In this document: piece after piece, positions 15,011 to 15,977 of the stretch
Numbering within the stretch: position 1 is the stretch's first letter
Layout of the letters: each line of letters opens with the position of its first letter
Assembly: GCF_963576615.1 (NCBI RefSeq)
Contig: NC_088711.1
Location: forward strand, 61,654,248 to 61,718,247
Origin: Watersipora subatra
Lineage: Eukaryota > Bryozoa > Gymnolaemata > Cheilostomatida > Watersiporidae
Direction of reading: 5' to 3'
Length of the DNA: 64,000 nt
The notes under the pieces: generated by a model
Told to the model about the DNA's origin: nothing
Database searches by the model: none
Seen by the model: only the letters and a program-made list of their open reading frames with translations
Program-made: the position numbers and the translations under genes

Positions 15011-15016
15011 ACTCAT

Positions 15017-15062
15017 GCTACAGACAGTACTGTTTCGGCTATTGAAGCCTCATCAGTGCAGC
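15017..15062 (-). ncRNA. Hammerhead ribozyme, unit 1
   Basis: Minus strand. Core CTGATGA is at 15056-15050. Stem II pairs GGCT with AGCC around a 5-base loop (15049-15037). GAAA is at 15036-15033. Stem III pairs ACAG (15033-15030) with CTGT (15027-15024) around a 2-base loop. The cleavage triplet GTC is at 15025-15023, cutting after 15023. Stem I pairs six positions, 15057-15062 with 15022-15017, including one G-U. All conserved core bases are present. Confidence 0.85.
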
Positions 15063-15275
15063 TCAGAGCTTAGGCAAGGGACACAAATCCCATTACCAAT
15101 GAGAGTTGACTTCCTGCCATGAAACAACTAAGTTGCCTCGCAGACTTTAAGAAAGCTAATGTGCTGGCACCAGAGTGCTCAAATCACAAAAGTGATGAGC
15201 TTTGCACAAAGGCTAATAGTGCCGCACCTCTCACAGAGTGCTCAACCAAACCGAAGCAAGGGAGCATATACTCAT

Positions 15276-15321
15276 GCTACAGACAGTACTGTTTCGGCTA
15301 TTGAAGCCTCATCAGTGCAGC
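15276..15321 (-). ncRNA. Hammerhead ribozyme, unit 2
   Basis: Same core, stems and GTC site as unit 1, shifted by 259 bases; predicted cut after 15282. Confidence 0.85.
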
Positions 15322-15534
15322 TCAGAGCTTAGGCAAGGGACACAAATCCCATTACCAATGAGAGTTGACTTCCTGCCATGAAACAACTAAGTTGCCTCGC
15401 AGACTTTAAGAAAGCCAATGTGCTGGCACCAGAGTGGTCAAATCACAAAAGTGATGAGCTTTGCACAAAGGCTAATAGTGCCGCACCTCTCACAGAGTGC
15501 TCAACCAAACCGAAGTAAGGGAGCATATACTCAT

Positions 15535-15580
15535 GCTACAGACAGTACTGTTTCGGCTATTGAAGCCTCATCAGTGCAGC
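15535..15580 (-). ncRNA. Hammerhead ribozyme, unit 3
   Basis: Identical fold to unit 1, shifted by 518 bases; predicted cut after 15541. Confidence 0.85.
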
Positions 15581-15793
15581 TCAGAGCTTAGGCAAGGGAC
15601 ACAAATCCCATTACCAATGAGAGTTGACTTCCTGCCATGAAACAACTAAGTTGCCACGCAGACTTTAAGAAAGCCAATGTGCTGGCACCAGAGTGCTCAA
15701 ATCACAAAAGTGATGAGCTTTGCACAAAGGCTAATAGTGCCGCACCTCTCACAGAGTGCTCAACCAAACCGAAGTAAGGGAGCATATACTCAT

Positions 15794-15839
15794 GCTACAG
15801 ACAGTACTGTTTCGGCTATTGAAGCCTCATCAGTGCAGC
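15794..15839 (-). ncRNA. Hammerhead ribozyme, unit 4
   Basis: Identical fold to unit 1, shifted by 777 bases, in the truncated last unit; predicted cut after 15800. Confidence 0.85.
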
Positions 15840-15977
15840 TCAGAGCTTAGGCAAGGGACACAAATCCCATTACCAATGAGAGTTGACTTCCTGCCATGAA
15901 ACAACTAAGTTGCCTCGCAGACTTTAAGAAAGCCAATGTGCTGGCACCAGAGTGCTCAAAAGTGCATCAGAGTGCTC

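Follow-up and report, generated by a model that had tools for sequence, protein, structure and literature searches.

The genome of the bryozoan Watersipora subatra (783.7 Mb) contains a dispersed 259-nt hammerhead retrozyme that is very probably a non-autonomous element living on the resident Penelope-like elements (PLEs), most likely by parasitising their reverse transcriptase. This reading was drawn because the order, spacing, bulge and stem letters of a stem-loop module next to the ribozyme agree with those of the PLEs and because the copies of both end at the same places. Accounts of animal retrozymes, including the available sections of PMC7229834, name PLEs or LINEs as the possible enzyme source and are undecided between them; here the insertions themselves seem to answer who copies retrozymes, their start site, stem-loops and target being those of resident PLEs. 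The analysis covered a window of 64,000 nucleotides (positions 61654248-61718247 of its contig) and was extended to copies elsewhere in the genome. An earlier note on this DNA had described the array and its ribozyme; the PLE start module beside the ribozyme, the main point here, was absent from it.

The retrozyme array and its hammerhead ribozymes

The array lies on the minus strand between two pure (TA)n tracts (Table 1), a placement already recognised in the earlier note, with the amendment that these flanks are the insertion target. TRF reported a tandem repeat at 15007-15960 with a period of 259, 3.7 copies, 99% matches and 0% indels, bearing out the description of near-identical 259-base units; the count of four units with a complete hammerhead was right as to the hammerheads and the period, but the array amounts to 3.7 units, three of them complete. 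The 5' partial unit retains its hammerhead, and the cut-to-cut spacing of the three complete units is exactly 259 nt. Four variants were counted within the regular unit, each private to one unit, with differences in the irregular 5' end left out. This end may represent an SL-A arm carrying a deletion or else a second occurrence of an SL-B arm; the span first given for the array (15011..15965) was sound except that its last 13 bp were missed. No open frame of at least 120 aa overlapped the array in the open-reading-frame scan of the window, so that an ORF for RT and GIY-YIG is absent; the element would behave as a PLE template without being a PLE.

Table 1. Features of the retrozyme locus and of the PLE-type elements in the window (strand "." where none is assigned).
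Feature	Position	Strand	Description
Retrozyme array	15007..15978	-	3 full 259-nt units, 5' partial unit and 16 nt past the last hammerhead cut
Hammerhead 1, type I	15794..15839	-	cut after + position 15800
Hammerhead 2, type I	15535..15580	-	
Hammerhead 3, type I	15276..15321	-	
Hammerhead 4, type I	15017..15062	-	
SL-A	15757..15784	-	TGCTC[CCTTACTTCGGTTTGG]TT-GAGCA, directly 3' of TATA; copies 15498-15525, 15239-15266
SL-B	15694..15719	-	AGCTC[ATCACTTTTGTGAT]TT-GAGCA; copy 15176-15201
SL-B copy	15435-15460	-	one G to C change in 3' arm
Irregular 5' end	15961..15978	-	(AT)n-TGAGCACTCTGATGCACT ahead of regular unit, by direct reading
(TA)51 target tract	14910..15011	.	3' side of retrozyme insertion
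(AT)50.5 target tract	15978..16078	.	5' side of retrozyme insertion
3' junction	15007..15011	-	joins (TA)n at the single TATA of the unit (unit position 12-16); putative reverse-transcription start
PLE1	33770..36690	-	603-bp inverted arms; PLE-protein-related open frame 34094-36103
PLE1 hammerhead	33895-33918	-	
PLE1 hammerhead	36598-36621	+	
PLE1 SL-A	33802-33826	-	
PLE2	52250..53275	.	inverted 473-bp arms; hammerhead 53168 (+); SL-A 52291-52318 (-)
PLE3	53276..54100	.	inverted arms; hammerhead 53446 (-); SL-A 53341-53362 (-)
PLE4-like inverted pair of hammerhead arms	47899..48072	.	one end in (TA)n; stem I run 7 bp

All four array hammerheads matched a three-stem descriptor with CTGATGA, GAAA and GTC, stem I having 6 bp and stem II 4 bp closed by a 5-nt loop, in agreement with the core bases, cut site and stems, including the short stem III, that had been reported for every unit of the minus strand. 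The 6 bp of stem I are GCUGCA/UGUAGC, beyond which the fold shows an internal loop and then another stem of 4 bp; stem II pairs GGCU with AGCC around the loop UCAAU; and stem III reads as ACA/UGU under a palindromic GUAC, the descriptor giving one pair more and a 2-nt loop. On both strands of the window the descriptor found 9 matches, 4 in the array and 5 in PLE-type elements, against an expectation of 0.025 per dinucleotide-shuffled window (40 shuffles). The covariance search suggested in the earlier note gave a divided result: no array hammerhead was matched at Rfam gathering scores, cut-offs at which such ribozymes are missed, and in permissive mode the array matched Hammerhead_HH9 with 21.7-23.5 bits (E 0.005-0.02), below the cut-off of 52. 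In the same mode PLE1 matched Hammerhead_3 at 17.1 bits (E 0.36), and the PLE2/3 and PLE4 stretches gave no hammerhead, their inverted repeats producing miRNA-family noise.

The short stem III, from which a need for a dimer or tertiary contacts had been suggested, is normal for the class: two pairs under a tetraloop are likened to invertebrate hammerheads in the available part of PMC7229834. The dimer idea keeps its place because ACAGUACUGU is a 10-nt palindrome, and the ribozyme may possibly work as a dimer. The newt and axolotl hammerhead satellites covered by the same sections share a type I hammerhead and a short helix III, and may act as dimers; one axolotl family has a palindromic tetraloop, as in the retrozyme. 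They differ in their 330-350 nt units, and the two axolotl families are weaker in helix III and in helix II respectively.

Core mutations in most genomic copies had been named in the earlier note as an objection; core and cut site were found intact in 97 of 101 full-span hammerheads from 38 loci, 89 of the 101 being identical over 46 nt, in a sample that favours well-kept copies (near-full-span matches from the best 40 of 1423 candidates). Substitutions and gaps relative to the window's unit numbered 14 in 4120 bases of the hammerhead, 3/2235 in SL-B, 10/2910 in the linker, 33/2194 in SL-A (11 at two sites of the inner hairpin) and 346/10745 at unit positions 107-217; of these 346, 242 are due to three sites where the unit of the window departs from the other copies. 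SL-B, hammerhead and linker are thus the least variable parts, in counts that are descriptive as the copies share ancestry. As a circle the unit folded to -82.8 kcal/mol, compared with -72.3 (sd 5.2) in shuffles; the resulting z of -2.0 hardly exceeds that of the antisense strand, -1.7. In the minimum folds of the hammerhead piece and of the circle stem II was kept, the core bases were paired otherwise and the three-stem core was incomplete; SL-A was absent from the minimum fold of the linear 108-nt piece and from the circular fold of the third unit. For single stem-loops the gain in folding over shuffles was modest (z -0.7 to -1.9).

Judged by its letters, the element is a non-LTR metazoan retrozyme, with which it agrees in every feature testable here, and its assignment to an established animal family in the earlier note stands, no earlier account of this particular family having been met. 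As in the retrozymes described in the available sections of PMC7229834, each unit has a type I hammerhead, many dispersed copies exist and PLEs with hammerheads occur in the same genome; tandem units there are 170-400 nt, and GC content is given as <50% in the text and <45% in the Figure 1 legend, compared with 259 nt and 46.7% here. Known non-LTR retrozymes are non-coding, lack LTRs, primer-binding site and polypurine tract, form linear and circular self-cleaving RNA and have a target-site duplication of >4 bp when one is present, which inside (TA)n would be indistinguishable from the target. A search of the open-licence literature for hammerhead ribozymes together with bryozoa returned no paper.

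Genome copies and insertion ends

The genome search with the 259-bp unit, as the earlier note had advised, gave 111 matches in 40 loci (the best 40 of 1423 candidates scored), and the exact junction GTC|TGTAGCATGAG-(TA)6, i.e. GTC followed by TGTAGCATGAG and TATATATATATA, occurred 599 times in the genome (300 forward, 299 reverse), with 0 matches for the same pattern read backwards. The earlier term "satellite" is accordingly replaced: with 111 places in 40 loci and 599 junction matches, this is a dispersed retroelement instead of a local satellite.

Insertion ends were read in 39 fetched loci and the window locus, giving 43 arms of 141-1403 bp; L014 and L037, whose flanks are those of L013 and L036, and the 3' end of the L048 minus arm, at the edge of the fetched stretch, were left out. 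Among the distinct, uncut 3' ends, 38 of 40 fell at unit position 14-16, inside the only TATA of the 259-nt circle, including L034, where the BLAST alignment stops early and the end was read by eye as TATAT. The exceptions were L013, at 83, and L026, for which BLAST gives position 16 and the letters read TGTAGCAT|ATATAT, so that it was counted at position 8. Three further copies beside PLEs ended at the same TATA (two) and at position 9 (one). The 5' ends, in contrast to this fixed boundary, scatter over the circle and, apart from L017 and L033, whose 5' positions are uncertain because of fold-back pieces, may shift by a few bases through microhomology. Six insertions of 264-273 bp comprise a single lap. 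Because the 3' end is fixed and the 5' ends vary, the mode of insertion is read as target-primed reverse transcription with 5' truncation, over up to about five laps, and not as crossing-over.

A satellite array grown by unequal crossing-over, with the ribozyme as a relic, would account for head-to-tail units of 99% identity, and the four private variants fit homogenisation as well as a single copying event. One fixed 3' boundary at hundreds of places with variable 5' ends, the one-lap insertions and the retained hammerheads all oppose it, and this explanation is exceedingly improbable; as a mode of spread crossing-over is already refuted, and local growth of single arrays by this route is possible. 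Target-primed copying is therefore kept as the reading of the ends.

The distribution of 5' ends bears on the template. Twelve of 41 lay at unit positions 1-16, the 16 nt between cut and start point, a number reached in 0 of 100000 uniform draws for a stretch picked post hoc, and ten of these twelve had the usual 3' end and represent whole laps. Three distinct 5' ends (L013, L040 and the L048 minus arm) fell exactly at the hammerhead cut (chance 0.0007), as would be expected from run-off on cut linear RNA. That copying is PLE-driven with uncut or partly cut linear multimeric RNA as the template, and not circles, is accordingly a serious possibility, if one held somewhat short of even; the ends between cut and start, with their ten whole laps, weigh against it, and whole laps also fit a reverse transcriptase reaching its own start on a circle. 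No 5' end (0 of 41) fell at unit positions 17-66 (P 0.007 for a gap of such size anywhere). These 50 nt, free of 5' ends in loci L010-L048, hold SL-A and part of the linker, and the gap is perhaps a protected stretch.

In two loci, L011 and L031, two arms stand head to head with their 3' ends outward and (TA)n between them, resembling the inverted arms of PLEs. In L013/L014 the 3' end lies at the foot of SL-B and is joined to AAAAAAAAGTTC, perhaps a rare use of a second start site. Within the window, a 17-nt identity with the retrozyme (CTGGTGCCAGCACATTG, E 0.05) was found at 31809-31837, directly ahead of a (TA)n tract.

Resident PLEs and the shared stem-loop module

The 669-aa frame of PLE1 matched ten relatives, chosen from 120 listed, at 51-55%, and the best match (P0001) has a precomputed GIY-YIG domain (PF01541). 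Pfam found RVT_1 in PLE1 below cut-off (17.9 of 29.6 bits) and no GIY-YIG. Beyond these protein matches, the PLE name and the GIY-YIG nature of the PLE1 C-terminus are what we take to be the case. PLE2 and PLE3 are present in the window as arms without RT, and the stretch at 47899-48072 is a further PLE-like family, in which the stem-loop descriptor recognised no SL. PLE2 at its right end and PLE3 at its left end have just a short, interrupted TA stretch in common, and nearby there is no pure tract of at least 12 bp. The window also contains LINE copies (48314-52170, 54504-58000 and 27776-28216) that abut (TA)n and have an RT plus zinc-binding domain below cut-off. Another hammerhead (CTGAGGAGTGCTTCGCACGAAAC...) was seen near the retrozyme arrays of L017, L024 and L034, in L017 ending in (TA)n; it perhaps represents a fifth PLE family.

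In the window, PLE1 has one tailed end and one tail-less end in (TA)n. Among its genome copies (best 40 of 184 candidates scored, 30 loci read), tail-less ends at CTATAT, just 5' of SL-A, had 11 distinct flanks, tailed ends at TTAGTATAT, about 65 nt further, had 20, and one copy was tandem; identical 34-nt flanks were pooled, making these lower bounds, and tailed copies were favoured by a query that held the tail. The corresponding distinct flanks for PLE3 (best 40 of 543 scored, 30 loci read) were 6 tail-less, 19 tailed and 1 tandem. Loci in which no end matched the search strings stand outside these counts (L059, L068 and L069 for PLE1; L086 and L102-L108 for PLE3). In the tandem copies SL-A follows the first start site and SL-B the second, and an ATG lies beyond the second start-site SL-B by 18 nt in PLE1 (MEKINFDYSTKNIPIP, distance by eye) and by 16 nt in PLE3 (MDCFNLQYSMTNIPVA, distance and translation by eye). 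Behind the leader an open frame continues in tandem copies L051/L061 and a PLE-like N-terminus in L101. PLE1 and PLE3 copies end at the same two kinds of place, immediately 5' of SL-A or of the point where tandem copies continue into SL-B, agreeing with the known PLE "tail": according to the available sections of PMC11167929 and PMC3846280, PLE reverse transcription starts at two internal RNA sites that bound an optional "tail". For this one genome it is suggested that the "tail" corresponds to the interval separating the two start sites, each of which marks the foot of the same bulged stem-loop shortly ahead of the ORF.

SL-A occupies the same place in PLE1, PLE2 and PLE3 of the window as in the retrozyme. 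Seven stem-loops from these elements conform to N(G/A)C(U/A)C-[inner hairpin]-U(U/A)-GAG(C/U)(A/G)-CU, with 5-nt outer arms and a UU/UA bulge common to all, while the inner hairpins differ throughout. PLE2 differs from the others by compensated, covarying changes at two outer pairs (U-A/C-G and G-C/A-U), and the outer stem has one A.A mismatch in four of the seven. SL-A of the retrozyme and that of PLE3 both begin with TGCTC and are identical in outer stem and bulge, and the SL-Bs of the retrozyme, PLE1 and PLE3 have AGCUC (AGCTC) with A.A at the foot. The spacing from SL-A to SL-B is 65 nt in the retrozyme, 66 in PLE1 and about 75, measured by eye, in PLE3. MAFFT did not recover the structural alignment of the stem-loops and mis-set the inner hairpins. 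The sequence motif alone (TTGAGCACT) was dropped as evidence, occurring also at 2265 and in LINE antisense.

A stem-loop descriptor was derived from the SL-As of PLE1-3, but written after the retrozyme had been seen, so that the shuffle figures serve as a guide. With an inner stem of at least 3 its only matches on either strand of the window were these three SL-As and two retrozyme SL-B copies; an inner stem of at least 2 added the three retrozyme SL-A copies and two stray matches. It also finds SL-B of PLE1, which came to light after the descriptor was written, and misses that of PLE3, whose 54-nt inner part exceeds its limits. Shuffled windows carried 0.6 matches (inner stem at least 3) or 2.1 (at least 2), and among 4000 shuffled units one such loop occurred in 0.6-1.0% and two in 0.2-0.4%. 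These matches in shuffled windows lend something to the idea that the likeness is due to chance and that (TA)n microhomology alone sets the 3' end, as does the fact that TATA is unique in the unit and would be picked by microhomology alone. Microhomology, however, would not place a like-built stem-loop at the foot of TATA and a second one beyond it: when unit positions 16-130 were shuffled, the former arose in 23 of 20000 cases and both in 4 of 20000. Chance likeness is on these figures highly improbable. The retrozyme appears, from its sequence, to have both the recognition structures of the PLEs and their reverse-transcription start site, as deduced from insertion ends.

The target is less telling. 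LINE copies adjoin (TA)n too, so that a (TA)n target is in itself no distinguishing mark of PLEs; proximity to (TA)n was dropped as proof for this reason and because the PLE2/PLE3 boundary is without a pure tract. The shared target makes the LINE with its RT at 54985-56949 the main rival enzyme, and LINEs are named beside PLEs as candidates for retrozymes in the available sections of PMC7229834. Mobilisation by this LINE is nevertheless very unlikely: a blastn search of the remaining window with the unit as query (E up to 10) gave 0 matches to LINE copies, so that the LINE 3' end is not shared, the stricter stem-loop descriptor also gave 0 matches in them, and the start point of the retrozyme is that of the PLEs. 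Counter-evidence to the PLE reading comes from the PLE4-like pair, which is without the stem-loop, and from the two of 40 retrozyme ends, with one of the three further copies, that lie elsewhere. The A.A mismatches, the MAFFT result, the modest or alternative folds and the contrast with the Anolis PLE, whose start is not homologous to its target, also tell against it.

PLEs and retrozyme copies were found nested in one (TA)n tract in L075, in the order PLE1, retrozyme, PLE3, and in L085, and TA tracts are therefore a common landing site. Searches of viral contigs gave 0 confirmed cases for the PLE protein profile (10 pattern-matching stretches) and 0 for two hammerhead plus stem-loop patterns, and a genome-contig search outside W. 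subatra gave one PLE contig among 43 matching stretches, which stops at its hammerhead. This 3.8-kb contig (L001, JAAEPJ010000379.1), filed as a bacterial MAG, encodes a PLE and has inverted arms with a hammerhead at the end; it is probably animal contamination.

Proposed mechanism and known systems

In the proposed mechanism, minus-strand transcripts of an array would be cut by the hammerheads into 259-nt units, some of which may be ligated into circles. The PLE protein would bind the pair of bulged stem-loops that lies 3' of the cut, just as it would bind its own leader, and presumably also cut the (TA)n tract seen as the target at the insertions, the DNA end then pairing with UAUA at the foot of SL-A. 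Reverse transcription would be primed at this UAUA, where the junctions are observed, and copying would proceed 5'-ward through the hammerhead and, for one to about five laps, round a template that may be a circle or an uncut multimer. It would halt at varying points and be joined to the other DNA end, in keeping with the fixed 3' and variable 5' ends observed. The likeliest partner is a PLE of the PLE3 type. Published PLE biology, as given in the available sections, fits this scheme, with two internal start sites and, in PMC11167929, AT-rich cutting in which both strands are cut and extended.

The consulted part of PMC11167929 describes in the Anolis PLE PAc a hammerhead upstream of the start region, a stem-loop at the start and an AT-rich target, as here. 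Unlike PAc, the retrozyme is without an ORF, and the PAc start lies in the ORF with no homology to the target, whereas in PLE1 and PLE3 it lies before the ORF, with UAUA like the target. Likeness also extends to the Penelope families of Adineta vaga, for which the sections available of PMC3846280 give inverted pLTRs, an optional 31-bp tail and a trans-mobilised gene, pLTR sequences being sufficient in cis; what was copied there was a host gene, in contrast to the 259-nt ribozyme element present in hundreds of places here. In PMC7229834, so far as its available sections go, PLEs were suspected from shared hammerheads, tandem copies and co-existence; beyond this, the present analysis defines the insertion boundary, the (TA)n target and, 3' of the hammerhead, a PLE start module. 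Neither retrozymes nor their suspected mobilisation by PLEs is new; the shared start module apparently is: no description of it or of a fixed 3' junction of retrozymes was met in the sections available of the open-licence literature searched, where earlier notice is possible.

More tentatively, animal retrozymes in general may be stripped PLE leaders that kept the hammerhead, start site and SL-A/SL-B as a small circle and lost the ORF, the tandem stem-loops being the cis-signal for the two internal start sites of the PLE protein; we regard this as possible but somewhat doubtful. If it were true, PLEs would have a SINE-like class of their own, with RNA produced by ribozyme action, and lap-wise copying of circles would set array length. 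Should other retrozymes carry the module, the present one would be a plain member of its class and the module a class property.

One further element beside (TA)n, at 32021-33778 in the window, has 438-bp inverted repeats with ends CAGTGAAAC... and is presumably a DNA transposon, probably of the TA-inserting kind.
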